DNA from: Paraburkholderia agricolaris
Lineage (GTDB): Bacteria; Pseudomonadota; Gammaproteobacteria; Burkholderiales; Burkholderiaceae
Assembly (NCBI RefSeq): GCF_009455635.1
Contig: NZ_QPER01000001.1
Location: 2,604,001-2,668,000, forward strand
Length of the DNA stretch: 64,000 bases
Direction of reading: 5' to 3'
Positions 1 to 60,872 of the stretch are shown in pieces. The stretch's first letter is position 1. The number at the start of each line of letters is the position of its first letter. The notes under the pieces are model-generated. The model saw nothing but the letters and a program-made list of their open reading frames with translations. It had not been told where the DNA came from and made no database searches. A program made the position numbers and the translations under genes.

Positions 1-2366
1 GCAGCGTCGGCGGCGGGTTTGGCGCGGCTGGCGCCGAATACGCACGCTGCCGTGAAATAGCCCGTTTCGCTGCATCCCCCGTACAGCGGAATGCGACGGC
101 CGTTTTCAGTGACGGACAACAACTCGCCGGTAGTCGCATCGATCGCGACACCGTATTTTTGCAGATCGAGCACGGCGGCGCCCAGTGCCGCGCCGAGCCG
201 CGCCGGATCGGTTTGCAAACCGCGCGGCGTGTTCAGTGGATCGGCGGGATCGAACTGGGTCGCGTAGAGCTTCGCATCGCCGATCTTTTCCGCGCGCGAC
301 CAGAATGCGCCCCACAACGGCGCACCGCGCGATTGCGTCGCGCCGGTGTTGTCCCACCCGCGCAGCACGCGGCACGCGGCGGCGATATCCACTTTGCGCG
401 AGGCTGGCGCACCCGGGGTGCTCGCTGTGTTGGCAGCGTTGGCAGCAGATGCAGCCGCCGCCGGGTCGTTCGGCACACTGACTTCGATGCGATTCGCACT
501 ATCCGCGACGCACACCTGCGCCAGCAACGCAGCCTTGAACAGTTCCGCCGACAGCACGCGGCTATTCAGCGACAGGTCCCGTACCGTCGCATTGGTCGCA
601 CCGCGTCCCGGCAAGCCATCGCTGCCCGCCATACGTTGCGCGATCATCAGATGCCCGAGCCGCGCGCGCAACCCGGGCGCCTCCGGTGCGCCGCCAAAAA
701 TCCTCGGATAACCGGTAAGCGGCTGCGCGGGATTCGTCAGCCAGTGGCTGTTGTTCATGTTCGCGACGTAATCGGTGCGCAGCAGGCTCGGCATGCTGCT
801 CGCGGCGAACGCGCCGGGTTGAGGCGAACCGGCGTCGGTGCGCCAGTTGCACGACGAACGCGAGCCGTCGAGCAAGGGCACGCCCGGAGCGCCTTTGGCG
901 AACGCGGGTGCCAGCTTCGGCGCGCATTGCGCGGCGAGCTCGTCGGGCACGTTCGGCACCGCGCCGATATCCGCGTACCACGCGCGACGATCGCCACGCC
1001 CTATCGCGAGCGTGTTGACCCACGGCACGGCGGCGAGGCGCCGCTGAATCGCGATGAAATCGTCCAGCGAGCGCGCCTGATCCCATGCGAGGAAATTGCG
1101 GAACACCCGGAAGTTGTCCGCGTTGATATCGCGGATCGCAAACGCCTGCTGCCCATTCCACGCAAACGCCGGCGACATGGCGCCGAGATTGACCAGCGGA
1201 CCGAAGCGCGTGCGATACAGCGTGCGCGTACGTTTGATCAACTGACCGTTGCCGTCGAGCACATCGATGGTGAGCGGCACTGCCGTCATCGGCTCGGGTT
1301 TGCCGTCGAACAGATAGGTGGTCGGCTTGCCTTGCTGCAAGCTCAACTGAAACACGCCGAAGCGTCGCGCGCTCGATACCGTGTGGGTCCACGCCACCGA
1401 ATCGTTGAAGCCGATCATCACGAGCGGAACACCGAGAAACCCGGCGCCGCTGACATTCAACTGGCCAGGAATCGTCAGTTGCTGCTGATAGAAACGATCC
1501 GGACCGCGCCAGAACCAGTGTGGGTTGCCGAACAGTAACGGCTGGCCGTCGGGCGTCGCGTCGCCGCCGAACGCGATGCCGTTGCTGCCGAGTCCGACGT
1601 GTCCGCCTGCCTGGAAGTACTGTTGCGACAAGGCCTGCGCCGCGCTATCGAGCGATGCCGTCTGAATGCCGGCCTCTGCTGAACTCCGCCGTTCCGTCGA
1701 CGACGTTTGAGCATTCCCGGAAGGCGGCGTAGCCGTGGCGATCGCGGTGACGAATTGGGCGTAACCGCCGGCAAGATTCGCCGCGTACAGACGGCGGTAA
1801 ATATCGGCTTCAGTGATATCGCTCAGCCACGCCTGCCCGCGGCACGCCTGATATTGCTGGGCCGGTGCGCTACCGTCGCGCACCGATTGCACGACCCGGT
1901 TGTAGCCAGCCGCGAAACCATGCACCAGTTGCCGGATTTGCGGCGGCTGCGCTTGCCGGTAGGTCTCGACGATCTCGTTCGTATCGATCAGCCGGAAGAA
2001 GAAATCGGCGTCGATGTTCTTCGGCTGGCCGTACGTGGAATGCAAGGGCAAATGCGCATCCGCGCCGAAATAGCGCGAACGTTCGCCGCGATACGTGACG
2101 AACGCATCGGCCATCGTGCACAGATTGTCGCTCGCCTGCGCGAAGCCGACGCCATAGCCGAGGCTCGTCCAGTCGGCGGCTTCGATATGCGGCACGCCGT
2201 CGGCCATCCGGCGGATCTGCACCTGAACATGTTCGGGACGTGGATTGCCGGCGGCGTTCGCAGCGCGGCCGTTATCGCCCGACGCAGCGCCGGTCGTGCA
2301 GCCAACGCCGATCAGCGCGGCGAGGACTCCGGCGCCGAGCGCCAGTACGGTCTTCAGTTTTTGCAT
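1..2366 (-). CDS. penicillin acylase / PvdQ-type Ntn hydrolase (3' end cut by window edge)
   Basis: The minus-strand frame is open from the ATG at 2366 to the window edge, so the C-terminus is missing. A GGATGGAG ribosome site directly precedes the ATG. The N-terminus has a hydrophobic export segment (about residues 6-23) ending in a Cys, but the lipobox is poor. The key motif is GLGSNGIAFGG near residue 260. In the penicillin acylase family an autocatalytic cut before such a Ser makes the Ser the N-terminal nucleophile of the beta chain. Family members cleave amide-linked acyl chains in the periplasm; PvdQ removes the fatty acid from the pyoverdine precursor, and others degrade acyl-homoserine lactones. 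It starts 52 bp after the 3690-residue NRPS, so it is probably co-transcribed. By inference it trims or remodels the lipopeptide siderophore. A role in quorum quenching cannot be excluded. Confidence 0.85.
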   Translation of the reverse strand, partial: MQKLKTVLALGAGVLAALIGVGCTTGAASGDNGRAANAAGNPRPEHVQVQIRRMADGVPHIEAADWTSLGYGVGFAQASDNLCTMADAFVTYRGERSRYFGADAHLPLHSTYGQPKNIDADFFFRLIDTNEIVETYRQAQPPQIRQLVHGFAAGYNRVVQSVRDGSAPAQQYQACRGQAWLSDITEADIYRRLYAANLAGGYAQFVTAIATATPPSGNAQTSSTERRSSAEAGIQTASLDSAAQALSQQYFQAGGHVGLGSNGIAFGGDATPDGQPLLFGNPHWFWRGPDRFYQQQLTIPGQLNVSGAGFLGVPLVMIGFNDSVAWTHTVSSARRFGVFQLSLQQGKPTTYLFDGKPEPMTAVPLTIDVLDGNGQLIKRTRTLYRTRFGPLVNLGAMSPAFAWNGQQAFAIRDINADNFRVFRNFLAWDQARSLDDFIAIQRRLAAVPWVNTLAIGRGDRRAWYADIGAVPNVPDELAAQCAPKLAPAFAKGAPGVPLLDGSRSSCNWRTDAGSPQPGAFAASSMPSLLRTDYVANMNNSHWLTNPAQPLTGYPRIFGGAPEAPGLRARLGHLMIAQRMAGSDGLPGRGATNATVRDLSLNSRVLSAELFKAALLAQVCVADSANRIEVSVPNDPAAAASAANAANTASTPGAPASRKVDIAAACRVLRGWDNTGATQSRGAPLWGAFWSRAEKIGDAKLYATQFDPADPLNTPRGLQTDPARLGAALGAAVLDLQKYGVAIDATTGELLSVTENGRRIPLYGGCSETGYFTAACVFGASRAKPAADA

Positions 2367-2380
2367 GCTCCATCCAGTGA

Positions 2381-2398
2381 CGCTGCGTGAGCGCAGCG
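2381..2398. other. short inverted repeat between NRPS and acylase genes
   Basis: CGCTGCG and CGCAGCG arms flank a 4-base loop in the 52-bp gap between the NRPS stop and the acylase start. There is no T-tract, so it is not a convincing terminator. It could affect mRNA stability or the balance of translation. Confidence 0.3.
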
Positions 2399-2418
2399 CC
2401 ACGGTCCATTACGTAGAG

Positions 2419-5400
2419 TTAGTCCATCAGTTCGTCGAGCAGCGACTTCATCTCGCGGACGTTGTCGTCCTGCTCGCGCTGTGCATTCGCGTGCAATGCT
2501 TCGCACTCCGCGGCGATCTCATGCAGTGTCGGCTTCAGAAACAGGGATGCTAGTGGAATATCCGTTTGCAGATCGCGGAAAATTGCGCGCTGCGCTTTCA
2601 TCGTCAGCAACGAGTGTCCGCCAAGTTCGAAGAAATTGTCGTGACGGCCGATCCGTTCGATCCCCAGGATGTCTTGCCAGATTGCCACGATAGCGCGTTC
2701 TGTTGGGTTTTGAGGCGGCTCGTAAGTCGCGGCGCGGTCCGCGATGGCGCCTTGCTCCGGCGCGGGCAGCGCCTTGCGGTCCACCTTGCCGTTGGGACTC
2801 AGCGGCAGCGTGTCCAGCACGACGATCGCCGACGGCACCATGTGCTCGGGTAACGCTTCGGCGAGAGCCTGCCGCAAGCTCGACGCGGCCAGCGCTGTAT
2901 TCGCGTTGGCGCTGACGTAAGCGATCAGGCGCGTGCCCATTGGTGATTCCTGAGCGACGACGACCGCCTCACGCACATTGGTCTGCGCGAGAAGCTGTGC
3001 CTCGATCTCGCCAAGCTCGATCCGGAAGCCACGAATCTTCACCTGATGATCGATCCGGCCCAGATACTCCAGCGCACCGTCCGCACGCCAGCGCGCCAGG
3101 TCTCCCGTGCGGTACAGACGGGTGCCTTCGGCCGAGAACGGGTCCGGCACGAAGCGCTCCGCCGTCAGCGCCGGGCGGTTCAGATAACCCCGCGCGAGCC
3201 CCGCTCCACCCAGATACAGTTCACCTGCCACTCCCACCGGCGTCATGTTCAGCGATGCATCCAGCACATACGTCTGAACGTTCGCAATCGGACGGCCGAT
3301 CGGCGTTACCGTGTCCTCCGCCTGGCAGCTCCAGTGCGTGACGTCGATGGCCGCTTCCGTCGGGCCGTACAGGTTGTAGAGTGCCGCAGCCGGCAGCGCC
3401 GCCAGCGCACGGTCCTTCAGCTCCGTGGACAACGCCTCGCCACTGCAGATCACGCGCCTGAGGCCCGTGCATTGCTGCGCGCCTTCGTACGCGATGAACG
3501 CCTGCAGCATCGACGGCACGAAATGCAGCGTCGTCACCGCATGGCGTTCGATCAGTTCGGCCAGCTTCTGCGGATCGCGATGATCGTCAGGCGCGGCCAC
3601 CGCCAGACGCGCGCCGGTCATCAACGGCCAGAAGAACTCCCACACCGAGACGTCGAAGCTGAACGGCGTCTTCTGCAACACCGTGTCTGTGGCATCCAGC
3701 GCGTAGGCCTGCTGCATCCACACCAGGCGGTTATATAGCGCGCCATGGCGGTTCGCCGCGCCCTTCGGCTGGCCTGTGGAACCCGACGTGTAGATCACGT
3801 AGGCGAGGTTTTCGCCATCCAGTCCGATAACCGGGTTGTGCGACGGTTGGTCCGTAAGATCGGGCGCATCCAGTTCGAGCACCGCGATCCCATCCGGCAG
3901 CGGCAGCGCGTCACGCACCCGGCGCTGCGTCAGCAGCAGCGCAATGCCGCTATCGGCCATCATGTACGCGAGTCGCGCAGCCGGATACGACGGGTCGAAC
4001 GGCACATAGGCGCCGCCCGCTTTCATGATCGCGAGCAGTCCCACCACCATCTCGACCGAGCGCTCGACGGCAATCCCCACGCGCACATCCGGGCCGACGC
4101 CCTGTGCCGATAAGCGGTGCGCCAGACGGTTGGCGCGCGCGTTCAGTTCGGCGTAGGTCAGCTTCTGATCGCCAAACAGCACGGCCACCGCGTCCGGCGT
4201 CCTGCGCACCTGCGCCTCGATGACCCGATGCACAGGTTGTGCGCCGTCATAGTCCACATCGCAACGGCTAAAACCGAGCAGATGCTCACGCTCCGCGTCG
4301 CTCATCAGTTCGACGTCGTTGACCGTGGACACCTGCCCCGACACGAGCGCATTCAGCGACGCCACATAGTGCCGCGCCAGCCGCTCGACCGTCCGCGCAT
4401 CGAACAGCTCGCACGCGTACACAAAGCTCGCCGACATCGTCCCGTCCGACGCCTCCGTCGTATTCAGCGTCAGCTCGAACTGCGCCATCGCCTCGCTCAA
4501 CCCGTACCACGCCACGCTCACCCCGGGCAGCGTCTCCAGCACCCGCTCATCGTCGCGCAGATGGTTGAACATCACCTGGAACAGCGGCGCGTGGCTCAGG
4601 CTGCGCTGCGGCTGCAACGCATCGACCAGCACGTCGAACGGCAGGTCCTGATGCGCCTGCGCCTCCTGCGCGGCGCGCCTCACCGTCTCCAGCAACGTCG
4701 GCAGCGGCGTGCCGCCGTCCAGCTGCGCGCGCATCACCAGCGTATTGACGAACAGTCCGATCAGCCCCGCGGTTTCGACCCGCTCACGGTTCGCCGCCGG
4801 CACCCCAACCCGGATGTCGGTCTGCCCCGTGTAGCGATGCAGCAGCAGCTGGAAGCCCGCCAGCAGCACCACGAACGGCGTCGCCCTCAACTGCTGCGCG
4901 CGTTGACGGATGGCCCGCGCCAGCGTGTCCGGAATGACGATGCGATGGGTGGCGCCGTGCCAGGCGCTCACCGCCTGGCGCGCACGGTCCGCCGGCAGTG
5001 CCAGCACCGGATGATCGTCGCCCAGCTGCGCGCGCCAGTATGCGAGCTGGCGCGCCTGCTCACCCGCTTCGAGCCAGCGCCTCTGCCACACCGCGTAATC
5101 GGCGTACTGCACCGGCAACGGATCCCGCTGCGCCTCGCTGCCTCCGCGCAGCGCACGATAGCCTTCGACGAATTCCCGCAGCAGCACATCCACCGACCAG
5201 CCATCCGACACGATGTGATGCATCACCACCGCCAGCACATGCTCGCGTTCATGCACCCGGATCAGCGCGACACGCAGCAGCGGGCCATGCACCAGATCGA
5301 ACGGCTCGGCGGCGAAGGCGTTGACGGTCGATGCCAGGGTGGTTTCTATCGCGCCGGAAGATGCAATATCAACGATGCGCCAGTCGCATCGCGTCACCAT

Positions 5401-8400
5401 ACCAATGGACTGCACCACTTCGCCATCGGCCTGCGCCACAAAGGTCGTGCGCAGCGATTCATGCCGTGCGACCACCGCATCGATGCTGGCGCGCACCGCG
5501 TGCGCATCGAGTTCACCCGTCAGCCGAAGTGCACCCGGCATGTGATACGCGCTGCTCTGCGGCTGCAGATTCCACAGGAACCACAGACGCTGCTGCGCGT
5601 GCGACAGCGGCAATGCCGTCCGTTCGTCCGCGGCGATGACCGTCATCGGCGGCAGTGCGGCTTGCGTGGCGTCTTCGTTCAGGGTCTGGGCCAGCGCCGC
5701 CACCGTCTGCGTATCGAACAGCTGGCGCGGCGTCATCGTGATGCCGGCGTGATGGGCCTGGGCGACCACTTTCAGGCTGAGAATCGAATCGCCACCGAGT
5801 TCGAAGAAGTTGTCGTGCCGTCCGACGCGCTCCACCCCCAGCACCTGTTCAAACAGCGTGGCGAGCGTCGTTTCGAAGTCGCCTTGCGGTGCTTCATAGC
5901 CACGCGTCTGGAATTCAGGCGCCGGCAGCGCCTTGCGGTCCACCTTGCCGTTCGGCGTCAGTGGCAGCGCCTCCAGCACCACCACGGCGGACGGCACCAT
6001 GTAATCCGGCAATGCCGCCGACAACGCCGCGCGCAACGACGCGCCATCCAGCGTGACGCCCGCATGCGGCGCAACGTAGCCCACCAGGCGCATACCACCC
6101 GCTGCGCCTTGCGCGGTCACCACCGCCTCTCGCACGTCCTGCTGCGCCAGCAGTTGTGCCTCGACTTCGCCGAGCTCAATCCGGAAGCCCCGGATCTTGA
6201 CCTGATGATCGATCCGCCCGAGATATTCCAGCTCACCGTCCGCGCGCCAGCGCGCCAGGTCGCCGGTGCGATAAAGCCGTGCGCCCTGCGTGGAGAACGG
6301 ATCGGGCACGAAGCGCCCCGCCGTCAGCGCCGCACGCTTCAGATAGCCCCGTGCCAGCGCCTCGCCGCCGATGTACAGTTCACCCGCCACGCCTTGCGGC
6401 ACCAGATTCAGACTCGCGTCGAGAACGCGCAACTGCGTCGCCGGTAACGGACGGCCCAGCATTGGGGCACTCTCACCGACATGCGCCACCGACGACCAGA
6501 TCGTCGTTTCGGTCGGTCCGTACATGTTCCACAGATCGACGCCCGCAGCCCGCAGACGCGTCGCCAGTTCGGCCGGCAGCGCTTCACCGCCGCACAGGCC
6601 CTTCAGCGAGACCCGTTGCGCGCCCGCAGGCCAGCCCGAGTCGAGCAGCATGCGCCAGGTCGCCGGCGTCGACTGCATCACGCTCGCCGCATGTTTCTCC
6701 AGCAACCCTGCCAGCAGACGGGCGTCACGTGCTTCATCGCGAGAGGCCAGCACCACCTTCGCGCCTGCCATCAGCGGCAGGAACAGTTCCAGCGCCGCAA
6801 TATCGAACGACAGCGAGGTCACCGCGACCAGCGTGTCACCCACCGTCAGACCCGGTTCGCGCGCCACGCCGTGCAGGAAATTCGTCAGCGCGGCGTGACG
6901 CACCATCGTGCCTTTGGGCTGGCCTGTCGAACCCGACGTATAGATCACGTACGCCAGTTGCTCACCGCTTACGGCCACCGCCGGATTCCCGGCCGGCCCG
7001 GCCGACAGATCCAGCGCATCCAGTTCGATCACACGGGTGGGTTCACCCACCGGCAACGCGCCGGTCATACCCATCACCGCGCGCTGGGTCAGCAGCAAGG
7101 GCGCACGGCAATCGTCGAGCATATAGCCCAGCCGGGCGGCCGGATACGACGGGTCGAGCGGCACATACGCCCCTCCCGCCTTCAGCACCGCAAGCAGCGC
7201 CACCAGCATATCCACCGAACGCTCCAGCGCCACCGCAACCATCACGTCGGCGCGCACGCCTTCGCGGATCAGGCGATGCGCCAGGCGGTTTGCACGCGCA
7301 TTCAACGCGGCATAGCTCAATGCCTCATCGCCACAGACCAGCGCAATCGCATCCGGCGTCGAGGCTCCCTGGCGCTCGATCAGCTCATGCACGGCAGCGG
7401 CGTCGGCGAACGAATCGGTGCTGCATCCAGCGTGCTGCTGGTGCACCGATGAAGTGTCGTCCAGAAGCGTCAGCTCACCGACAAATTCCACGGCGCACAG
7501 CCCATTCAACAGGAGCCCGAACTGCTTCAGAAGCTGCGCGACCCCTGTCGTATCGATCCCGTCTTGCGCAAAACTGCAGCGCGCGCGCAGCACGCCATCG
7601 ATCTGCGCGACCGTCAGCGTCAACGGATAATGCGTCTGCTCGCGGCTCGATACATCGAGCACCTGCAAGCCGCCAGGCGCGCCGGCCTTCAACGCGGCAT
7701 CGACCGGATAGTTTTCGAACACGATCAGGCTGTCGAACAGCGCCTCGCCGCCCACGCCGGCCCAGCGTTGAATCTCGTTGAGCGGCGTGTGTTCATGCTC
7801 GCGCGACATCAGCGCCTGCGCCTGCATCGCCCGCAACCAGTCGCCGACACGCAGGCCGGCGCGCGGCGATGCGATCACCGGCAACGTATTGATAAACAAG
7901 CCGAGCAACTGTTGCGCACCGGGCAGATCGTCGGGACGGCCGGCGACCGTTGCGCCAAATGCAATCGTGTCCTGCGACGTATAACGCTGCAACAGCAACG
8001 CCCACGCGGCCTGCACCAGCGTGTTGACCGTCACGCGCTCCTGTCGCGCAAAGGCGGCCAGTCGCTCACTGGCTTCACCATCCAGTTCGAGATGCGCTTC
8101 GGCGTAGCCGGGGTTTCCAGTCGCACTATAGTCGCTTGCTTCGGCAGCACCCGCGGTGCCGCGTAACGCAGGTGCGAGCCGCGTCGGTGTATCGAGCGCG
8201 GCGAGCTGATCGCGCCAGTACGTTTCGCTGGCACCGGGATCGCGCTTCAACAGCCATTCGACGTAATCGCGATACCGCCCACCGCGCGTCGCCAGAGGTT
8301 CGCCACCGTAGTGGCGCAGCACGTCGCCGATCAGCTGCGATGCGCTCCAGCCGTCGAGCAGCACGTGATGCACGGTCCAGATCAGGTGATAGCGCGTGTC

Positions 8401-13581: not shown

Positions 13582-13619
13582 CTTCCATTCAGATCGCCGC
13601 GCGTGCCGCGGCGGGATGT

Positions 13620-16096: not shown

Positions 16097-16222
16097 GCCT
16101 CTTTTCCCCTTGGTCTCTGCTCTCATGCCCGTTCCAAACGCTGGTAGTTTTTTAGAAACGGCGAACGCCGGCATGACGCTCAATCGGTTGATCGAGGTAT
16201 GCCGTCGAGCGCCCACTCGAAT

Positions 16223-16285
16223 GGTAATGATTCTTATTACTGATGCAAATTACGAATACTAAACGGAATCATTCCCATTACGCAA
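16223..16285 (-). promoter_or_regulatory. Fur-controlled promoter of the receptor gene
   Basis: On the minus strand TTGCGT (16285-16280) and TAGTAT (16261-16256) are 18 bp apart, a good sigma-70 spacing. A Fur-box-like sequence overlaps the spacer (16264-16282, 11 of 19 consensus positions by hand). A second lies just downstream (16223-16241, 13 of 19), with GTAAT...ATTAC symmetry. Iron repression of the receptor is the natural reading. Confidence 0.7.
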
Positions 16286-51870: not shown

Positions 51871-51989
51871 CTTTGCCCTCGTGGACCGGCTTCACAAGCC
51901 GATCTGTTATTCATGCCCAACCGGTATCGAAGCAACCGGCCGGCAGTGTGTCCTGCGCCATTGCTCTTCAGATGCCGCGCGTCACGCGC

Positions 51990-52841
51990 TCAGCGCGTCG
52001 GTTCAACCGGCTGCCTGCGCTGAACTTCATCCGTTGCCTCGTCCGCGTCCTTCGTCTGCGCCGCATTGCGCGCACGCCGGCTCAAAAACGGACAGGCGTC
52101 CACCGCCGCGACATCGCGATCGTCGAGGAAGTACTGCTTCCACTCGAGATTGCCCGCGTCGCCGTAAAAGCCGAGATCCGGATGCGGCGGCACATCGTCC
52201 CAACGACGCAGACGCTCGCGCACCTGATTGCGTGCCTGACGCCCGATCACCTTGTTCGTGATGGTGTCGACGAACACCGCGCGCGGCTGGAACAGCAGCA
52301 CCATGCCGGGGCCGAGATTGCGGCTGTGCCGCTGGGCGAACGACGGGCATGCGCAGACCACGAACATCTGGATGCCGCCGAACGAAAACTCCCACTCCTC
52401 CTGCGACGGGTCCGGCTGGTGGTCCGCCTCCGGATCCGGGTCCTGGTCGTGCAGAAATTGCAGGGTGTCCCAGAACAGATCGTGATACTCGTCGTGCGAC
52501 AAGGGTTCGGCATCCGGCTCGAAGAAGATCGCGATGTTGTTGCGCCGGTACTCCGGACGCGACGCAAGCGCCGCGAAGGTCGCCATCGTCGCGGGCAGCG
52601 TGCTGGTGTCCTTCTCGTTGACGAATGCGTAGAACATCTCGCCGCGCCGCTCGGCAATCGTGCCGAAGAAACACGGGTACTCCGGATGCATGACCTGGTC
52701 ACGCAAGCTTGCATACGAGTCGGGCAACCACGCGGGCACCTCGGTGAGCCCGAGCTGCTCGCCGAGAATCGTGCGTGAGCGCCAGTCGCTCACGCCGCGT
52801 GTCGCCGGATCCTGCTGTTGGTCATCGAGCTCAGCGGGCAT
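51990..52841 (-). CDS. grbE: YqcI/YcgG-family protein, DcsA/GrbE-like N-hydroxylase candidate
   Basis: The protein resembles the YqcI/YcgG family (PF08892): HPEYPCFFGTIAERRG near the N-terminus, FGGIQMFVVCACPSFAQRH in the middle, and DACPFLSRR near the C-terminus. A member of this family, DcsA of D-cycloserine biosynthesis, is a heme enzyme that N-hydroxylates arginine. In gramibactin producers grbD and grbE are both needed for graminine, which derives from arginine; assigning the letter E to this family is from memory. The upstream gene is the SznF-like partner. The frame opens at 52880 with further ATGs at 52868 and 52841. Only 52841 has a strong site (GGAGAGGGCC), giving 283 residues, and an in-frame TAA lies just upstream of 52880. 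The 3' tail is charged and variable-looking. Confidence 0.85.
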   Translation of the reverse strand: MPAELDDQQQDPATRGVSDWRSRTILGEQLGLTEVPAWLPDSYASLRDQVMHPEYPCFFGTIAERRGEMFYAFVNEKDTSTLPATMATFAALASRPEYRRNNIAIFFEPDAEPLSHDEYHDLFWDTLQFLHDQDPDPEADHQPDPSQEEWEFSFGGIQMFVVCACPSFAQRHSRNLGPGMVLLFQPRAVFVDTITNKVIGRQARNQVRERLRRWDDVPPHPDLGFYGDAGNLEWKQYFLDDRDVAAVDACPFLSRRARNAAQTKDADEATDEVQRRQPVEPTR

Positions 52842-52889
52842 GGCCCTCTCCAATGAAGACTCAGACATGGTGTTTTGCATGTGGCGTTA

Positions 52890-52933: not shown

Positions 52934-52981
52934 ATGAAGCACTGCGCATCTCCACTCGGTGCGCTGAGCCGGTCGATGCGC

Positions 52982-53004
52982 TTGCGTGCAGAAATCGCAC
53001 GCAA
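52982..53004. other. inverted repeat in the grbD-grbE intergenic region
   Basis: TTGCGTGC and GCACGCAA form perfect 8-bp arms around a 7-base loop. There is no T-tract on either side. It may be an RNA hairpin or a protein-binding site in the 289-bp gap. Confidence 0.5.
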
Positions 53005-53052
53005 ACAGAGGCCCTCCGGCGTGCGCGAACGCATCCGTCGAGGGTGTCGGGG

Positions 53053-53088
53053 AAAACAAAAAATGCGAGGCTTGCGGTGCCGGCCTGC
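53053..53088 (-). terminator. terminator- or attenuator-like element after the SznF-like gene
   Basis: On the minus strand an imperfect GC-rich stem (arms at 53083-53088 and 53065-53071, with a bulge) is followed by TTTTTTGTTTT. It lies about 45 bases after the upstream stop codon. The stem is short, so it may only partly terminate. It could separate the MbtH-TE-grbD transcript from the downstream genes. Confidence 0.35.
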
Positions 53089-53130
53089 CAATCCGCGCGG
53101 CACGCTATCGCATCAGCTCACGAGCTCAGC

Positions 53131-54666
53131 TCATGACGTCACGGCGATTGCAACGGCCGTCTCCGTGGGGGCTTTCGCGACGGGCGCAAGGCCCGCGTTG
53201 GCTGGAACCGGCCGCGTGCCGGGCGGCAGTTCCGCGATCCATTCGTCGGGGATGATCGGCTGGTGATAGGTGCACTCGGCCGACGTGACGGTCGAGCCGT
53301 GCAGACGGCCGTCGGGAATCAGCACCATGTCGCCGCGCGTCATTTGCAATTGCATGCCCACGTTGCCCCAGAAAATCATGTCGCCGCTTTCGATGACGAC
53401 CAGCCGATGATCGTTATGCACATGCGTGGTCGAACACATTTCGCGCGGCTCGACGAAGGTTTCGCGATCGATATCGGGCCGTTCCGCGTTGATACGCTGA
53501 TCGATGCCTTTGGCAAAGCGCACGTACTGGTCGATCGACGACAGCCAGCGCAGCTGTTCGCCGAGATCCCAACGCGCGCGACTCGCGAGCTTGACGGCAG
53601 CGCCCCAGCCCTGGCCAAAGCGATACAGCCCTTGCGTGCCGTAGCGTGCTTCGAGTTCAGCAAGCGCGGCTTCGAAACGGGCAACGAGGGCGGCAAGCGG
53701 ATCGGCGCCAGCGCCAGCATTGGCGCTCGTGCCTGCATGCGGGTTCGCATTGGGGTGCGCCGCGCCGCGCGACGACGGCGCAACCAGATGCGGGCACGCT
53801 TCGGCCAGCGCTAGTGAAAACGCCAGCGCTTCGGCTTCGGCGGCAAACGCCGCGCCGAGCAGCGCGAACGCGCGGTCCGGCCGCGAGCCGAGCGCGTACA
53901 GCAGGTTCACTTTCGCGAGGCTGGTCGGCAGATAGAACTGCCAGTACGAATGTTCGCGGCGCGTGAGGCCGGTAAATCCCGCAACGCGCGCGAGTAGCGC
54001 GTCATTGGCGGCATCGTCGAGGACCGGACGGTTCGCGGCATCGATCGCGTCGAAATAGCCCGACGCCACCGCGCGGCCAACCGCGATGCGGCGCGACGGC
54101 GCGAGGCTCCAGCGCTGGATCATCACGAAGCGCAGGCCTTCGGGCAAATAGTCGTTGCGCATCAGCGTGCCGAATGCATCGCGCCAGAACGCGCTTTCCG
54201 CGTCGATCAGTTCGTGGAGACTCGCCCGGTACGCGCGCGCATCCCGCTGCGGCGACGCTTCATCGCCGACGAACGTGAATGCATAGTTCTCGAGGAACGG
54301 CCGGATGCGCGCGCCAAGCACCTGGTTGCGCTCGCCGTAATAGCCGTCGAAGCGCGCGAACTCGTCGGCATCGACACTGCGCGGCAGTCGTGCAACGCCC
54401 GCTTCGTTGAGTGTCAGCAGCAATCGTTGCGATGCGAGCGACGGCAGACGGCTGACCGTTTCGGCGCGGATCGGCTTCTTGAACAACAGGAAATCGAGGT
54501 CTTCAGGGCGCAACGGACGGCGGTAGAAATCGTCGTCCAGTTCGAGCTCCTCGACCGCCGCGCTGCGAAAACCGTCGTGCGCGGCAAATTCACGGATCAG
54601 CGGAAGTATCTCGTCCCGTTGATCAAGGTACGGCGAAAAATCAAAAAGCAGAGTTTGCTTGTCCAC
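53131..54666 (-). CDS. grbD: heme-oxygenase-like di-iron / cupin protein, SznF/GrbD-like
   Basis: The 511-residue protein has a largely helical region with carboxylates and His typical of heme-oxygenase-like oxidases (ELIDAESAFW, RREHSYWQFYLPTS, AAEAEALAFS) and a C-terminal cupin with HVHNDH and a distal His in DGRLHGS. The same order occurs in SznF of streptozotocin biosynthesis, which N-hydroxylates methylarginine and rearranges it to an N-nitrosourea using a three-His cupin. In gramibactin the related gene is needed to build the graminine diazeniumdiolate from arginine; the symbol is from memory. A low-complexity Ala/Asn/Gly insert separates the two parts. The frame reaches an ATG at 54690 without a ribosome site, whereas the GTG at 54666 has GGAG seven bases upstream and is preferred. 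It lies 51 bp after the thioesterase gene. Confidence 0.85.
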   Translation of the reverse strand: MDKQTLLFDFSPYLDQRDEILPLIREFAAHDGFRSAAVEELELDDDFYRRPLRPEDLDFLLFKKPIRAETVSRLPSLASQRLLLTLNEAGVARLPRSVDADEFARFDGYYGERNQVLGARIRPFLENYAFTFVGDEASPQRDARAYRASLHELIDAESAFWRDAFGTLMRNDYLPEGLRFVMIQRWSLAPSRRIAVGRAVASGYFDAIDAANRPVLDDAANDALLARVAGFTGLTRREHSYWQFYLPTSLAKVNLLYALGSRPDRAFALLGAAFAAEAEALAFSLALAEACPHLVAPSSRGAAHPNANPHAGTSANAGAGADPLAALVARFEAALAELEARYGTQGLYRFGQGWGAAVKLASRARWDLGEQLRWLSSIDQYVRFAKGIDQRINAERPDIDRETFVEPREMCSTTHVHNDHRLVVIESGDMIFWGNVGMQLQMTRGDMVLIPDGRLHGSTVTSAECTYHQPIIPDEWIAELPPGTRPVPANAGLAPVAKAPTETAVAIAVTS

Positions 54667-54717
54667 GCAGAATCTCCATGAAACGCACATTGATTTTGTG
54701 TCGATGACGCGGCTTCG

Positions 54718-55497
54718 TCAGGCGGCCGCTGCGCGCCGTTCCGGCGTGCCGCACTGCACGTGTGCTCCGGTCGCGCGACCCAGGCTGTCGCTCACGAGGT
54801 CAATCACCGCATCGCGGTGCGTGTTGATAAAAAAGTGATCCGCGTCGAGCGACGTCAACTGAAACTCGCCAGTCGTTTCCCGCGACCACGCGGACACGCT
54901 CTGCGGGTCGTCGTCGAGAATCGGATCGGCGGCACCCGCGAGGGCAAGCACGGGACAGTGAAGCGGCACGCGCGAGCGGTATTCGTACGATCCGCACAAA
55001 TGAAAATCGGCCCGCAGAAACGGCAGCACAAGCTCCATGAACTCGCGGTTCTCGAGCAGTTCGTCAGGCATGCCGTTGAGCGAACGCACTTCGTCGATGA
55101 ACTCTTCGTCAGGACAACTCAACCAGTGCAGCTCCCGCTCCCGCCGCGTCGGAGCCGTACACGCCGACGCACCGAACCACACCGGCGAAACGCCGTAGCG
55201 GGCCCTGATTGCATGGGCGAGTTCGATTCCGATAAGCGCGCCCATGCTATGGCCAAAGATCGCAAACGGCTCGCTCAGATGAGGCCGCATGTCCTCGACA
55301 AGCAACGCCAGCAACTCAGGCCACCGGTGCATCGGCTGCATGTTGTGACGCAGGCCACGGCCCGGGATATGCAGCGGCACCAGCCTGATCCAGGCCGGCA
55401 GACGTGAGGGCCACTCACGGTAAATCGCCGCGTTGCCGCCTGCATAAGGCAGACAGAACAGCGTCACGGTGCTGCTGGAGCCAACGGGCCGGGTCAT
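54718..55497 (-). CDS. type II (editing) thioesterase
   Basis: This 259-residue alpha/beta hydrolase of the GrsT/TycF type has an N-terminal FCLPYAGGNAAIYREW, the nucleophile elbow IFGHSMGALIG, a catalytic-acid candidate in AGAADPI, and the active-site His in LDADHFFI. Such free-standing enzymes clear misprimed or stalled acyl groups from NRPS carrier domains in the cytoplasm. It begins 11 bp after the MbtH-like gene, with AAGGAT seven bases before the ATG, so the two are co-transcribed and probably translated together. Confidence 0.93.
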   Translation of the reverse strand: MTRPVGSSSTVTLFCLPYAGGNAAIYREWPSRLPAWIRLVPLHIPGRGLRHNMQPMHRWPELLALLVEDMRPHLSEPFAIFGHSMGALIGIELAHAIRARYGVSPVWFGASACTAPTRRERELHWLSCPDEEFIDEVRSLNGMPDELLENREFMELVLPFLRADFHLCGSYEYRSRVPLHCPVLALAGAADPILDDDPQSVSAWSRETTGEFQLTSLDADHFFINTHRDAVIDLVSDSLGRATGAHVQCGTPERRAAAA

Positions 55498-55508
55498 ACC
55501 GACGATCC

Positions 55509-55763
55509 TTAATGCGCCTGAGATTGCGGCTGCGGCTGGGCCGCTTCCGGCGCCGCGCTACTGCCGTCCATTGCCCGGCGCAAGCTGGCCGGCCGCATGT
55601 CGGTCCAATGCTCCTCGATGTATGCCAGGCATTCGGCCTTCTTTCCCTGCTTGCCCACGGCCCGCCAGCCGCCCGGTATCTGCTTGTAGCCTGGCCAGAT
55701 CGAATACTGTTCCTCTGCGTTGATCACTACCTCGAATTCGGCATTCTCATCGTCCCAACTCAT
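55509..55763 (-). CDS. MbtH-like protein
   Basis: This 84-residue protein carries the MbtH signature: [19 protein letters not shown], a conserved Cys before the helix, and [11 protein letters not shown]. MbtH-like proteins bind NRPS adenylation domains and are often needed for their solubility or activity. The last 17 residues are a Pro/Gln/Ala-rich tail. A clear AGGGGG site lies six bases before the ATG. It is the first gene of the minus-strand biosynthetic operon, directly behind a Fur-box-like sequence. Confidence 0.95.
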
Positions 55764-55855
55764 CGCGGCCCCCTGTCATTTCCGGCATCTCACACGCTGT
55801 CCTTCAGCTATTCGACAGCTTCCAATGCGTTACGCAATAAAACTCATTTCACATA

Positions 55856-55874
55856 GTAAATGAGAACCATTCGC
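55856..55874 (-). promoter_or_regulatory. Fur-box-like site before the MbtH-led operon
   Basis: The plus-strand sequence around AAATGAGAACCATTCGC matches 13 of 19 positions of the Fur consensus by hand alignment. It lies about 95 bp before the MbtH-like ATG. No clean -35/-10 pair could be fixed, so the exact promoter is open. Confidence 0.6.
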
Positions 55875-56040
55875 AAACGCCCGTGAAAGTTAGGCGCTGC
55901 GAGCCTTCTTGTCAAGATTTTTGACGAATTCCCATACGACTGATCGGCCATTACGACCACAACTCGATATCGCCCACGGCGTTGCAAGACCGCGCCACTC
56001 CCCGCCCTTCTCTCATCGTTACGCCTCAAGGGACTAGATG

Positions 56041-56062
56041 TGTAATGAGAATCGTTTATACT
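56041..56062 (+). promoter_or_regulatory. Fur-box-like site overlapping a -10 element before macA
   Basis: TGTAATGAGAATCGTTTAT (56041-56059) matches 12 of 19 Fur-consensus positions. It overlaps TATACT (56057-56062), a strong -10. The -35 is poor. The leader to the macA start would be about 175 bases. Confidence 0.6.
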
Positions 56063-56246
56063 TCGCGGCGATATTTACCCACTGCGGGCCACAGCGTCTC
56101 CAAGGTCCTTCGCGGTAACCAAGTGGATGCATAGTAGAAAGCCAGCGTGACGAATTCGTTACCGCGCTTTCATCGAAAACCGAGCGTCACGTCAGCGGCC
56201 CGTGTGCATGCGCGGCCCGCTGCCCTCTCCTGCCCCGAACCGTTCA

Positions 56247-57437
56247 ATGAGACGACTATCCAGACGACACACACGAACCGGCATTGTTGTGATTTTCATC
56301 TTGCTGACCGCACTGGCTGTCTGGGCGTTTTTCATTAGGGCTATTGAACATGTCGACACTGTCAGCATTGGCCGGGGCGATATCGAGTCCAGCGTCACAG
56401 CCCTGGGTACGCTCCAGCCACACAGCTATGTCGACATCGGCGCGCAGGCATCCGGCGAAATCCGCCGCATCCACGTCCAGCCTGGCGACATGGTCCGCAA
56501 GGGACAGTTGCTGGTCGAGGTCGATCCCAGCATCCAGCAGGCAAAGGTCGATGTCGACCAGTCCACGCTCGCGAGCCTGCGCGCGCAACTGGTCAGCGCC
56601 CAGGCCCAGCGCGAACTCGCGCAGCAGCAATACGACCGGCAGCGGCGCATGGCCTCCGAGGGTTCGACGCGCGACGAAGATTTGCAGACGGCGTACGCCG
56701 CGCTGATGTCGGCTCGCGCCACGATCGACAACCTGCGTGCCCAGATCGACGGCGCGCAGTCCAACCTCAAAGGCGATGAAGCGCAGCTCGGCTATACGCG
56801 TATCTATGCACCGATGAGCGGTACCGTCGTCACGCTCGATGCGCGCGAAGGACAGACGCTCAACGCAACCTATCAGACGCCGACGATACTGCGGATCGCC
56901 GACCTGTCCACCATGACGGTGTGGACCCAGGTTTCCGAAGCCGACATATTGCAGGTCAAGCCGGGCATGCCGGTCTACTTCACGACACTGGGTTCGAGGG
57001 AGCGCCGGTGGACCGGGACAGTGCGGCAGATCCTGCCCGCGCCGCCCAATCAGACCACCTCGTCCAATGGCGGCCAGCAGGGCAATCAGCCGGCGTCCAC
57101 CCAGAGCGCCGGCAAGGTGGTGCTGTATACGGTGCTTTTCGACGTTGCCAACGGCGACGCGCAACTCATGCCGCAGATGAGCGCTCAGGTCTTCTTCGTC
57201 GCGGCGAAGGCGCAGAAGGTCATCGTCGCGCCACTTGCCGCGCTGGTGCCGGCGAATGGCCAGCCGGGCAATTACACGGCGCGGGTTGCGCTGGGTGGGC
57301 GCATTGTGACTCGCGAAGTGCGGATCGGTGTGCATGACCGCCTCAGCGGCGAAGTCCTGGCGGGACTGCAAGCCGGCGACCGGTTGGTCACCGGGGTACG
57401 CCGTACGCGGGCGATCGACGGGAGATTCCAGTGGTAA
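56247..57437 (+). CDS. macA: MacA/PvdR-like periplasmic adaptor of a tripartite exporter
   Basis: This 396-residue membrane fusion protein has an N-terminal transmembrane anchor ([19 protein letters not shown]), a lipoyl-like half ([20 protein letters not shown]), a coiled-coil hairpin (about residues 95-165, rich in Gln, Ala and Arg), a second lipoyl half ([20 protein letters not shown]), then beta-barrel and membrane-proximal parts. It should link the MacB-type ATPase to the outer-membrane channel. The frame is open upstream to a GTG at 56202, but the Met at 56247 gives the usual short basic N-terminus. No clear ribosome site was found for either. The stop overlaps the macB start. PvdRT-OpmQ, a related pump, exports and recycles pyoverdine, so siderophore secretion is the likely role. 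Confidence 0.9.
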
Positions 57438-59449
57438 CGGTAACGGCTGGCAGCGCGACAGCCGCAGGGGTGTCTCCTGCTCCGTTGATCGAGCTTCGGG
57501 ACATCCGCAAGTCTTACGGCGGCAAGACCGAAGGTCCTGACGGCAAGCCGTTGCCGGCGGTCGATGTGCTGCGCGGCGTGAGCCTGTCCATCGGCGCGGG
57601 AGAGTTTGTCGCGATCGTCGGCGCATCGGGTTCGGGCAAGTCGACGCTGATGCACATTCTCGGCTGCCTCGACCGCCCCAGCGCCGGGCATTACCTGTTC
57701 GCCGGGCAGGACATCGCGGATTTCAACGCCGACGAACTGGCCTGGCTGCGCCGCGAAGCGTTCGGGTTCGTCTTCCAGGGCTATCACCTGATCGCCACCG
57801 AATCGGCACGGGAAAACGTCGAGGTGCCCGCCATCTATTCCGGCGTACCGGTCGCCGAGCGCGAAAAGCGCGCGGCAGCCCTGCTCACCCGGCTGGGTCT
57901 CGGGGACCGGCTCGACCATCGCCCCGGCCAGCTGTCCGGCGGACAGCAGCAGCGCGTATCGATCAGCCGCGCGCTGATGAACGGTGGCCACATCCTGCTG
58001 GCCGACGAGCCGACGGGCGCACTGGATTCCCGCAGCGGCGCCGAGGTCATGCTTCTGCTTGAAGAACTCGCCGAAGCCGGCCACACCGTCATCCTCATCA
58101 CCCATGATCGCGAAGTCGCCGCGCGCGCGCATCGCACTATCGAGATCCGCGACGGCCAGATCATTGCCGACTCCACCGGCGGCCCGGTATCGAGCGGGCG
58201 GGCATCGCTCGATGCGAGCACCTTTCTCGCCTCGATGGCCGATGGCGCGGCGCACACGGCATCATGGACGGCCGACACGCATGAAGCGCTGCGCGCGGCA
58301 TGGCGGGTTCTGTGGATCAACCGCTTCCGCACCCTCTTGACCCTGCTCGGCATCATCATCGGGGTCGCCTCGGTGATCGTCATGCTGGCCATCGGCGCCG
58401 GCACGGAACACCAGGTGATCGAAAAAATGGCCAGCTTCGGCACCAACCGGATGTACGTGATACCGGGCGGCGACAATCCTCGCGGACCGGGCGGCACCCT
58501 CTCCGAAGCCGACGCCGATCTCGTGCGCCAGATGCCCAACGTCACCGCCTCGATGCCCTTCCTCCAGGGCAACGTCACCGTGCGCTACAGCAACATCGAC
58601 GTGCAAGTACCCGTGTGGGCAGTGACAGAGGAAGCGTCCCGCGTACTGAACTGGAAGACCAGCCGCGGCATCTTCTTCACCGGCACGGATGAACAGGACC
58701 TTGCCACCGTGATTCTCCTTGGCAAGCGTGTGCGCGAAAAACTCTTCGGCAACACCAATCCCGTCAGCCACTATGTGCTGGTCAATAACGTCCCCTTTCA
58801 GGTGATCGGCGAGCTCGAAGAAAAAGGCGCGACCTCAGGGGACTCCGACGACGACAACGTCGTTCTTATGCCGTTTTCGACCGGAAGCCGGCGGATACTC
58901 GGCACTACGAACCTCTCGTGGATTTCGGTTCTGGTCGACAGGCTCGATCTTGCGGATCAAACCGCACAGCAAATCGCCGATACGCTGGAAGGCAATCACC
59001 ATATCCGTGATTTTGAGGTGTTCAACCGTGCCGCCTCCGTGAAAGCGCAGACCGAAACCCAGAGCACGCTGACGCTGATGCTCGGCATGATTGCCGCCAT
59101 TTCGCTGCTCGTGGGGGGTATCGGAGTGATGAACATCATGCTCATGACGGTCAGGGAGCGCACCCGCGAAATCGGCATCCGGATCGCAACCGGCGCACGT
59201 CAGCGCGACATTCTCCGGCAATTCCTGACAGAAGCCACGCTGGTTTCCGGCATCGGTGGCGTGCTCGGCGTTGTCTTCGGCCTGCTGGTCGGCGCAAGCT
59301 TGATGGCGTGGAGTGTTCCTGCCATCTTCTCGGTGCGTGCCATTCTCGGCGCCTTCACCTGCGCGCTGCTAACCGGGCTGATATTCGGTTTCATGCCGGC
59401 CCGCAAGGCCGCGCGCCTCGATCCTGTGATCGCACTGGCAAGCGAGTGA
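57431..59449 (+). CDS. macB: MacB/PvdT-like ABC exporter (ATPase fused to permease)
   Basis: This 672-residue protein has an N-terminal ABC ATPase: Walker [10 protein letters not shown], signature [10 protein letters not shown], Walker [13 protein letters not shown]. It is followed by the MacB membrane part, with one helix near residues 300-325 ([20 protein letters not shown]), a large periplasmic domain, and three C-terminal helices ([16 protein letters not shown] onward). MacB pumps take substrates from the periplasm and drive them out through an outer-membrane factor. The GTG start overlaps macA by 7 bp, so the two are translationally coupled. It would act on siderophore already moved to the periplasm. 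No inner-membrane exporter of the PvdE type is present in this window. Confidence 0.93.
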
Positions 59450-59453
59450 AGCG

Positions 59454-60872
59454 ATGAAACACTGGGTACTCGGTTTCACCATTCTTGGACTGTACGGGTG
59501 CGGTACGCATGCGCCCATCGACAGCGGCATCACCCCGCCCGCCACATGGCAGTATTCGACGGCCGCCGATACACCGACCCGGCCGACCACGCCGACCCGG
59601 CCGGTCCGGACAGACTGGTGGAACGAGTTCGGCAACAGCGAACTGAACAGCCTTGTCAGGCAGGCGGACACGGATAGCTTCGACCTTGCGGCCTCGATTG
59701 CACGCGTCGAGCAGGCTCAGGCCAGTGCGCGGATCGCCGGCGCGGCGTTGCTGCCTACCGTGTCGGGTTTTGCCGATGCCAGCAGGCAAGGCGGCCTGCT
59801 TGTCAGCGACACCGAATTGGCCGGAACGGCTTTCGACCTGGGTCTCGCCGCCAGCTATGAACTCGACTTCTGGGGGCGCAATCGTGCGCTTCGCGATGCG
59901 GCGCTCGCCCGGCTTCGCGCCTCCGGGTTCGACCGCGACACCGTGGCGCTCACGTTGAATGCGGACGTCACCAACACCTGGTTGCAGACCGTCGCATTGC
60001 GCGAACGATACGGCATCGCCCAGGAAAATCTGAAGATTGCCCAGCAGATTCTCGCCACTGTCGAATCGCAGTTCAGGGCGGGGGCGGCAACGCCAATCGA
60101 TCTTGCCCAGCAACGTGCGGTTGTCGCCGCGCAGCGCCGCAGCACCGCCCTGCTCGGTCAACAGGCAAACGACAGCCACGCGACGCTCGCGGTGTTGCTC
60201 GGCATTCCGGTGTCACGCCTGCAGCTTTCAACGACGGCATTGGACGGACTGCGTATCCCCGGCATTGACGCCGGGGTTCCCTCGTCGCTGCTGGTTCAGC
60301 GTCCGGACCTCGCGCGCGCCGAAGCACAGCTTCAGGCCGCCAGTGCGAATGTCACGGCCGCGCGTGCCGCGATGCTGCCGGGCGTTACCTTGACGGGTTC
60401 TGTCGGGTTCGGTAACGACCGTATTCGTACGCTGTTCGACAACTCCTTGTATAGCATCGCGGCGGGCTTGAGCGCACCGATCTTCAGCGGTGGCTCACTC
60501 GCGGCGGGCCGCGATCTCGCCGTCTCGCAGAAAGAAGAACTGCTCGCCAATTACCGGCAGGCGATCATCGCCGCGTTCGGCGACGTCGAGCGATCTCTCA
60601 ATGCGATCCAGGGGATCGACGCGCAACGCGCGGCGCAGACCGACGAGCTGGATGAAGCGCGGCGCGCCCTTGCACTGGCACAGAGCCGGTATCGGGCAGG
60701 CGCCGAAACCTTGCTTGTCGTACTGGCCGCACAGCAGACGCGGTACCGCGCAGAGGATGAGAACGTTCAGTTGCGACTGGCGCGTTTGCAGGGCGCGGTG
60801 TCGCTATTCCGGGCGCTGGGCGGAGGCTGGCGCGATGGTGGGGTGCAGGCCGGCGCCGGTCGTAGCGGCTGA
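59454..60872 (+). CDS. outer-membrane factor lipoprotein (NodT/OpmQ-like)
   Basis: This 472-residue TolC-family channel has a lipoprotein signal ending in LYGC (Cys at residue 16) and paired OEP repeats: WWNEFGNSELNSLVRQAD, ASYELDFWGRNRALRDAALAR, and in the second half QRPDLARAEAQLQAASANV with SAPIFSGGSLAAGRDLA. It completes the tripartite exporter. The ATG lies 4 bp after the macB stop (overlap-type spacing). The last residues (after about 450) are Gly/Arg-rich. No clear terminator was seen after it. Confidence 0.92.
   Translation: MKHWVLGFTILGLYGCGTHAPIDSGITPPATWQYSTAADTPTRPTTPTRPVRTDWWNEFGNSELNSLVRQADTDSFDLAASIARVEQAQASARIAGAALLPTVSGFADASRQGGLLVSDTELAGTAFDLGLAASYELDFWGRNRALRDAALARLRASGFDRDTVALTLNADVTNTWLQTVALRERYGIAQENLKIAQQILATVESQFRAGAATPIDLAQQRAVVAAQRRSTALLGQQANDSHATLAVLLGIPVSRLQLSTTALDGLRIPGIDAGVPSSLLVQRPDLARAEAQLQAASANVTAARAAMLPGVTLTGSVGFGNDRIRTLFDNSLYSIAAGLSAPIFSGGSLAAGRDLAVSQKEELLANYRQAIIAAFGDVERSLNAIQGIDAQRAAQTDELDEARRALALAQSRYRAGAETLLVVLAAQQTRYRAEDENVQLRLARLQGAVSLFRALGGGWRDGGVQAGAGRSG

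Follow-up and report, generated by a model that had tools for sequence, protein, structure and literature searches.

Organization of the locus

We analyzed a stretch of 64,000 nucleotides of the Paraburkholderia agricolaris genome (8.72 Mb, two contigs), located at C1:2604001-2668000 (C1 being contig NZ_QPER01000001.1) and hereafter called the window, which carries an operon that probably directs the synthesis, export, and uptake of a graminine siderophore. Graminine siderophores form a young class whose iron ligand is unusual, and nitric oxide (NO) is released by members in plant roots, according to the relevant passages of PMC6771848. The operon contains four genes for nonribosomal peptide synthetases (NRPSs), whose domains are given below as C (condensation), A (adenylation), T (thiolation), E (epimerization), and TE (thioesterase), with Gra for graminine:

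1..2402, continuing to genome position 2603721, minus strand: acylase of the Ntn-hydrolase superfamily, PvdQ/MacQ type, first 800 codons (ATG at 2366, GTG at 2402)
2419..13491, minus strand: NRPS4, modules 5-7, C-A(DAEHIGAITK)-T-E-C-A(Gly)-T-C-A(Ser)-T
13667..16216, minus strand: TonB-dependent siderophore receptor with STN signalling domain (PF00593, PF07715, PF07660; TIGR01783 over cut-off)
16226..16238, minus strand: Fur-box-like site 5' of the receptor gene, with one mismatch to AATGAGAAYCRTT
16349..19756, minus strand: NRPS3, module 4, degenerate C-like domain-A(Asp, DLTKIGHIGK)-T (ATG at 19756 the probable start)
19773..35516, minus strand: NRPS2, loading module and modules 1-3, FAAL-T-C-A(DGEDIGTVSK)-T-C-A(Thr)-T-E-C-A(Ser)-T-C-TauD
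35506..51870, minus strand: NRPS1, modules 8-11, C-A(Gra)-T-E-C-A(Ser)-T-E-C-A(Gly)-T-C-A(Gra)-T-TE
51990..52880, minus strand: GrbE, YqcI/YcgG-family N-hydroxylase (PF08892, E 3e-65)
53131..54690, minus strand: GrbD, SznF-like N-N bond enzyme (SznF, PDB 6m9r, E 1e-31)
54718..55497, minus strand: type II thioesterase (PF00975, E 3e-45)
55509..55763, minus strand: MbtH-like protein of 84 amino acids (PF03621, E 1e-22)
55859..55871, no strand assigned: Fur-box-like site AATGAGAACCATT 5' of mbtH, from a motif search
56044..56056, no strand assigned: Fur-box-like site AATGAGAATCGTT 5' of macA, from a motif search
56202..57437, plus strand: MacA/PvdR-type periplasmic adaptor (PF16576, PF13437)
57431..59449, plus strand: MacB/PvdT-type ABC exporter (PF12704, PF00005, PF02687)
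59454..60872, plus strand: OEP/OpmQ-type outer-membrane channel (PF02321; TIGR01845 over cut-off)

The NRPS reading frames are long and open and their condensation-domain matches run without internal stops, so that the NRPS signal cannot be ascribed to chance. When the neighbouring sequence was scanned, the operon was found to extend for about 6 kb to the left of window base 1, ending at genome position 2598051; base 1 is therefore the edge of the window and not the end of the locus. Beyond this edge lie the remainder of the acylase gene (the whole gene spans genome positions 2606402-2603721) and genes for an FhuD-like binding protein, an FhuB-like permease, an FhuC-like ATPase, and a cyclic-peptide exporter of family TIGR01194. 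The MbtH-like protein is the sole PF03621 match in the whole genome at an E-value of 0.001.

An earlier note, made from the letters of this stretch, had listed a FAAL domain, eleven A domains, four E domains, a TE, a TauD domain with an Asp module, SznF-like and YqcI-like genes, a receptor, and an exporter. All of these are present; the acylase, the type II thioesterase, and the MbtH-like protein were absent from that list. The note had also called the locus complete-looking, which is true of the assembly line but not of the operon, as the latter runs past the window edge.

Graminine enzymes

Three features by which a graminine cluster can be recognized were found: GrbD and GrbE occur together, the A-domain code DVHRTGLVAK is present, and receptor and uptake genes lie in the same cluster. 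GrbD aligns with SznF over positions 52-291 (i-Evalue 4e-19) as well as over the cupin part at 373-477, in which His423, His425, and His464 are invariant among 27 aligned sequences. In the description of GrbD given in the excerpted parts of PMC9679993, only the cupin domain of SznF is named as homologous, whereas our search also aligns the part ahead of the cupin. In that part, some of the diiron ligands seem by eye to have been lost. For GrbE, the nearest solved structure is that of AglA (PDB 9uba, E 1e-36).

More distant GrbD-like proteins, with 24-32% sequence identity, were seen in Accumulibacter, Propionivibrio, cyanobacteria, Pyrinomonadaceae, Azospirillaceae, and Myxococcaceae. Bordetella sp. 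LUAb4 (G327) has two GrbD-like genes, one encoding a protein 63% identical to GrbD from the window and another, on a different contig, one that is 29% identical.

Assembly line and predicted peptide

The four NRPS genes encode 11 C, 11 A, 4 E, and 1 TE domain, with 11 T domains after the loading T, and every module has both an A and a C domain. Genome-wide, PF00668 matches at 18 places, 16 of which are in the window (the 11 C domains, the four E domains, and the degenerate domain of NRPS3), and a tree of C domains places four of the 15 sequences from the window in the E clade. The FAAL domain that opens NRPS2 carries LQYTSGSTSSPKG and lacks YGPTE; the TE motif that closes NRPS1 is GWSLGG.

In the order of synthesis argued for below, the A-domain codes (with the tenth residue, K, assumed rather than read) are DGEDIGTVSK, DFWNIGMVHK (Thr), DVWHISLIDK (Ser), and DLTKIGHIGK (Asp) for modules 1-4; DAEHIGAITK, DILQLGMIWK (Gly), DVWHISLIDK (Ser), and DVHRTGLVAK (Gra) for modules 5-8; and DVWHISLIDK (Ser), DILQLGMIWK (Gly), and DVHRTGLVAK (Gra) for modules 9-11. 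The code DVHRTGLVAK, found in two of the eleven A domains, is the graminine code given in the pertinent section of PMC10391617, and the Thr, Ser, Gly, and Asp assignments match identical or near-identical codes printed in the sections consulted of PMC3207962, PMC10391617, and PMC12283262. For module 1, the nearest printed codes are DGEDHGTVTK, given for an Orn domain, and DGEDHGTVVK, compared in a passage on Lys (both in the excerpt of PMC12283262). A DGED-type code also stands fourth in the line of a Burkholderia plantarii-like genome (G368), and plantaribactin, as described, contains one Orn; because of these parallels we read module 1 as Orn/Lys-like. A full-text search of open-licence literature returned no paper with the module 5 code, DAEHIGAITK, and its residue is shown as X.

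Two known clusters served as controls for the extraction of codes. From the Tistrella plasmid, seven of seven published tistrellabactin codes were reproduced, after one extra A-like motif without YGPTE had been dropped; from P. graminis, after an acyl-CoA-ligase-like sequence and the FAAL had been dropped, the six codes read Asp, Thr, Thr, Gra, Gly, and Gra, which is the composition of gramibactin. The proposal in the earlier note of two graminines and one beta-hydroxyaspartate (OH-Asp) on an 11-residue NRPS peptide is thus well supported by the A codes and by both controls.

A TauD domain (PF02668, E 5e-43; motif HNE...H), the predicted Asp beta-hydroxylase, is fused to the end of NRPS2, directly before the Asp-coded gene. 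The C-like domain of NRPS3 (PF00668, E 2e-16) reaches profile position 329 only. Interface-associated Asp beta-hydroxylases (IbetaH_Asp) go with a C-like domain without HHxxxDG that adjoins an Asp A domain. The NRPS3 domain, of the interface type, lacks HHxxxDG and lies beside the Asp A domain, and both His residues are gone in four of four aligned orthologues.

Several modules resemble one another closely at the DNA level. The two Gra modules, 8 and 11, have 97.9% identity across 2989 bases, the Ser modules 7 and 9 have a common run of 1123 identical bases, and modules 2 and 7 share 91.6% identity on their C-domain side. The module 1 A domain is chimeric, in that its second part is 94-97% DNA-identical to the Gly modules and its first part is not. 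To judge from their DNA, the modules of the window (2419-51870) are shuffled, recent copies of one another.

Order of synthesis and stereochemistry

NRPS1 is the first NRPS gene of the operon, but because it carries the TE it would act last. In Pandoraea (G168) and Chitinasiproducens (G006), which have related clusters, the FAAL gene, Asp gene, and TE gene are colinear. In C-domain trees (FastTree, midpoint-rooted), the first C domain of NRPS4 groups with the C domain that comes after the Asp gene of both G168 and G006, as well as with its counterpart in a Robbsia-like genome (G015), while the last C domain of NRPS2 groups with the last C domain of the FAAL genes of G168 and G006. From these groupings and the colinear relatives, we infer that synthesis proceeds in the order NRPS2-NRPS3-NRPS4-NRPS1.

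The window C domains that follow an E domain form one clade; the first C domains of NRPS1 and NRPS4 and the last of NRPS2 are in the other, L-accepting clade. In the window and in G015, G168, and G006, the last Gra module is followed by the TE without an E domain in between, and the last Gra is therefore predicted to be L. In P. graminis, a frame with C/E motifs and then one with a TE motif come after the last Gra module, and both Gra residues of gramibactin are D, with D-threo OH-Asp, in the stereochemical account excerpted from PMC9679993. The OH-Asp of the window is weakly predicted to be L; its configuration as read from the C tree is shaky, as in Tistrella the C domain after an L-erythro OH-Asp module groups with the D-accepting ones.

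The acylase

Behind NRPS4, at the window edge, lies the gene for an acylase (PF01804, E 2e-103 for the part in the window and 7e-111 for the whole protein). It has a lipobox-like signal sequence, as judged by eye, and a candidate nucleophile, Ser273, in the context GLG|SN; together with His295 and Val342, this corresponds by count to beta-chain positions 1, 23, and 70, residues that would have the roles of the equivalent positions in PvdQ. An Asn, the fourth such residue of PvdQ, was not at the position expected by count.

The acylase gene is embedded in the operon: 52 bp separate its ATG from the stop codon of NRPS4, and the gene overlaps the next one by 4 bp. This position recurs in the long relatives, in which the acylase match starts 62 bp (G015), 75 bp (G168), and 156 bp (G006) from the end of the last NRPS frame, so that the distance is at most 160 bp in four of four long clusters, the window included. 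In two shorter clusters with an acylase, G225 (8 A domains) and G164 (5 A domains), it lies 5.5 and 3.4 kb, respectively, from the NRPS frames.

Fate of the acyl chain

The FAAL domain indicates that the chain is primed with a fatty acid, and in this sense the term lipopeptide used in the earlier note holds. With a PvdQ/MacQ-type acylase so close behind NRPS4, however, the finished siderophore may lack a lipid. It would then differ in solubility and reach, as siderophores with a lipid tail are tied to membranes and those without one diffuse.

The gramibactin producers provide one point of reference. P. graminis and P. caledonica make gramibactins, as stated in the excerpt of PMC6771848, and no acylase match was found at 1e-20 in the whole genome of either, whereas 18 of the 30 genomes searched have one. 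Subtraction of the six residues from the mass of linear gramibactin B (853.3898) leaves 126.1045, exactly octanoyl, which shows that gramibactin keeps its lipid. At the other end stands tistrellabactin, for which a predicted NTN hydrolase, MobM, has been described, along with an acyl group inferred to be present during biosynthesis and not found in the product (PMC10391617, in the section concerned). In Tistrella, we find a penicillin-acylase gene 37 kb from GrbD, which we infer to be MobM.

We surveyed the distribution of the acylase more widely. Among 28 genomes with GrbD, including that of P. agricolaris, an acylase gene lies within 60 kb on the same contig in 14, about 400 kb away in one, and only on another contig in four; nine have none. 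Among 14 further genomes (13 of them new, with G183 shared), an acylase lies within 60 kb of GrbD in seven. The presence of an acylase anywhere in the genome, which we had considered as a separator of lipid-keepers, was dropped after this wider survey. The rule that a linked acylase means the loss of the lipid was likewise rejected: it is broken by G368, and 21 of 41 GrbD genomes have an acylase within 60 kb. A SyrD/PvdE-type exporter was rejected as a marker, since at 1e-60 it occurs in all of the 28 genomes.

An alternative reading, tentative but to be taken seriously, is that the mature 11-residue graminine peptide keeps its acyl chain and that the acylase quenches N-acyl homoserine lactone (AHL) signals or guards the cell from the precursor. 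The fatty acid is retained in gramibactin, the megapolibactins, and plantaribactin, and several further observations weigh against clipping. The only NCBIfam match of the acylase, bi_acylase_PvdQ, scores 528 bits and thus stays under the equivalog cut-off of 950. Its best solved match is PDB 5c9i (E 8e-232, compared with 3e-110 for PvdQ, 5ubl), an entry labelled "protein related to penicillin acylase" that we take to be the AHL acylase MacQ. In Tistrella, the annotation splits the acylase into two pieces that overlap. In G368, whose GrbD is 98% identical to that of B. plantarii P0049, a 55% identical acylase is encoded about 30 kb beyond the NRPS genes, with an L-lactate permease gene in between, and yet plantaribactin, as described, keeps its fatty acid; in another plantarii-like genome (G373, GrbD 92%), the acylase is 70 kb away. 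The frequency of 21 in 41 makes linkage alone a weak argument, and a SyrD-type exporter within 3 kb of GrbD in eight of the nine acylase-free genomes does not discriminate.

Linkage is not needed for clipping either, since the PvdQ-like acylase that clips glidonins has its gene 1 Mb away, according to the excerpted part of PMC10587159. The argument for deacylation thus lies in the tight operon linkage and not in the mere presence of an acylase. It is this linkage, the gene standing inside the operon in the window and its position being kept in three of three long relatives, all with a MacB pump near GrbD, that speaks against retention. A comparison of clusters with and without an in-operon acylase would make lipid retention directly testable.

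Transport and iron regulation

In 23 chosen genomes, MacB relatives lie within 10 kb of GrbD in nine (G000, which is P. agricolaris itself, G299, G015, G168, G186, G222, G210, G117, and G006) and at distant places only in three (G225, G083, and G324). No MacB match was found at 1e-150 in the other 11 (G316, G319, G275, G236, G128, G207, G075, G368, G164, G265, and G270). Both gramibactin producers are without a match at this threshold.

A search for the canonical 19-base Fur box gave no match at up to three mismatches, which speaks against Fur control. The relaxed Fur-like motif AATGAGAAYCRTT occurs twice between mbtH and macA and once more, with a mismatch, ahead of the receptor gene, compared with 0.06 sites expected at up to one mismatch. 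As this motif was derived from the pair of sites between mbtH and macA, the independent support comes from the receptor site and from sites in relatives: G168, G006, and G015 have similar sites ahead of mbtH and in the interval from the Asp gene to the conserved part of the receptor, the identity of which was confirmed.

The window receptor has an STN signalling domain, and the receptors of G168, G006, and G015 are without it. In a search for a FecR partner, two FecR-like genes were found in the genome, both on contig C2, which is not the contig of the locus.

Proposed pathway

On the whole, we consider it probable that the locus is an iron-regulated operon for an 11-module graminine siderophore whose acyl chain is clipped before export by MacAB. 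Gene content, codes, domain order, and operon layout are read from the sequence; the order of synthesis, chemistry, deacylation, transport roles, and iron control are interpretation. GrbE and GrbD would convert arginine to graminine, a reaction established for gramibactin and assigned here by homology. FAAL would load a fatty acid onto the line, and NRPS2, NRPS3, NRPS4, and NRPS1 would successively add Orn/Lys, D-Thr, Ser, beta-OH-Asp, D-X, Gly, Ser, D-Gra, D-Ser, Gly, and Gra, after which the TE would release the chain in linear or cyclic form. With Orn in position 1 and Gln as a stand-in for X, the linear peptide without lipid would have a calculated mass of 1185.486 (1199.501 if Lys replaces Orn), the cyclic form one lower by 18.011, and two losses of 29.998 would be expected. 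The SyrD/PvdE-type exporter would carry the acylated precursor to the periplasm, where the PvdQ/MacQ-type acylase would clip the acyl chain, and MacAB-OEP would export the product, a route that parallels pyoverdine maturation. Fe(III) would be bound by the two Gra and the OH-Asp, and the iron complex would return through the TonB-dependent receptor and the FhuBCD-like proteins. If true, the 11-residue version would be the longest of the class among those compared (6 residues in gramibactin, 8 in tistrellabactin).

It is rather unlikely that the product is something other than an 11-mer, with modules skipped or reused, as is the Gln module of tistrellabactin. Both loading in iterative fashion and a protein that lacks an A domain have been documented there (PMC10391617, in the section on biosynthesis), and the Pandoraea and Chitinasiproducens relatives have C-T modules in which no A domain was detected; in the window, by contrast, no module lacks an A or a C domain (11 C, 11 A, 11 T), and the C subtypes match the positions of the E domains. 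That the locus is silent or decayed and yields no product is very improbable, for although many NRPS loci are silent in culture, the frames here are open, the Fur-like sites recur in relatives, and the relatives keep the same genes.

Relatives and neighbouring features

Among named relatives, P. fungorum ES3-20 is the nearest; its GrbD is 92-93% identical, and its cluster is broken over contigs. The long relatives are the Robbsia-like G015, the Pandoraea genome G168, and Chitinasiproducens palmae (G006); together with the window they make four long clusters, each with 11 A domains. The predicted peptides differ among these clusters, that of G015 being basic-D-Ser-basic-OHAsp-Gly-Thr-Gly-D-Gra-D-Ser-Ser-Gra. 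In the FAAL genes of G168 and G006 (L134-L141), a C-T module without a detected A domain stands at position 2, followed by a C domain of the D-accepting clade, an arrangement that recalls the A-less MobG of tistrellabactin.

Chances are about even, in our judgment, that the loci of Paraburkholderia, Robbsia, Pandoraea, and Chitinasiproducens form a distinct graminine subfamily, in which a lipid-anchored 11-mer with one D- and one L-graminine would be stripped by a periplasmic acylase and exported by its own MacAB as a hydrophilic, NO-releasing siderophore, convergent with pyoverdine maturation. As the Pandoraea GrbD ranked high, pandorabactin was considered and set aside: its reported residues are without graminine, a word that is absent from the excerpted text of PMC12144892. 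The Pandoraea relatives, in a genus with opportunistic pathogens, would then have a graminine system apart from pandorabactin. Among the matches listed from open-licence literature, as excerpted, there was no report of an 11-residue graminine siderophore or of a graminine cluster in Pandoraea or Chitinasiproducens, and trinickiabactin was met only as an entry in a table. GrbD/GrbE clusters have been mined at scale in PMC12971057, the excerpt of which mentions Bordetella, and some of the present loci may be in its tables.

To the right of the exporter genes, two small overlapping open reading frames lie on the minus strand (61339-61794 and 61791-62225; 151 and 144 amino acids), before the tRNA gene; they have no Pfam match and may not be genes. 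A tRNA-His gene (62373-62448) and dusA (62557-63558) border the locus on this side; tRNA genes and dusA are kinds of genes that serve as integration sites in other bacteria. A second, smaller NRPS-like frame, with two condensation-domain matches, lies at C1:3645704-3650119.

Comparison with known systems

The earlier note had left open whether the product equals a described compound. Its module number and predicted composition set it apart from gramibactin, megapolibactin, plantaribactin, and tistrellabactin as these are described. The gramibactin cluster (grb) of P. graminis shares with the window GrbD and GrbE (GrbD 56-59% identical), two Gra and beta-OH-Asp, a FAAL start, a receptor, an MbtH protein, and a thioesterase. 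It differs in having 6 residues rather than 11, in a line (OH-Asp, Thr, Thr, Gra, Gly, Gra) that does not occur in the window, and in a genome without an acylase match (1e-20) or a MacB match (1e-150), both of which the window has. Gramibactin also has two D-Gra and D-threo OH-Asp, whereas in the window the last Gra is predicted to be L and the OH-Asp, weakly, also to be L. A motif search for TauD in the gramibactin cluster found none.

The megapolibactins of P. megapolitana, compared by description only, share Gly, Ser, Thr, OH-Asp, and two Gra with the predicted peptide. They differ in that no basic residue is reported in the description at hand and in that the acyl chain is attributed to a C-starter domain and is retained; their composition (Gly, OH-Asp, Ser, Thr, two Gra, and Ala or Ser) does not agree with that predicted from the window. 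Plantaribactin and gladiobactin (Burkholderia plantarii, glumae, and gladioli) have in common with it the FAAL start, Gra, OH-Asp, Ser, and a DGED-type basic code, but contain Gln or Lys and, as described, retain the lipid. The plantarii-like G368, of which the stretch compared covers the cluster in part (only four A domains and no Gra module), differs in a code order that begins with Asp, in the location of its acylase about 30 kb outside the NRPS block, and in the lack of a MacB match at 1e-150.

The tistrellabactins, encoded on plasmid pTM2 of Tistrella mobilis, are alike in Gra and OH-Asp, MbtH, a receptor, FhuB, and a linked penicillin-acylase gene, and no lipid was detected in the product, according to the excerpt of PMC10391617. 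They differ in having 8 residues, a single Gra, an OH-Orn hydroxamate, a GrbE fused to an NRPS, and a GrbD 55% identical to that of the window, and the window does not reproduce the seven tistrellabactin A codes of their Table 1.

Pyoverdine maturation involves PvdE, PvdQ, and PvdRT-OpmQ. The window locus resembles this system in having bi_acylase_PvdQ as the only NCBIfam match of its acylase, a TIGR01194 exporter over cut-off, and a MacAB-OEP pump; it differs in its iron ligands and in an acylase that scores under the PvdQ equivalog cut-off.

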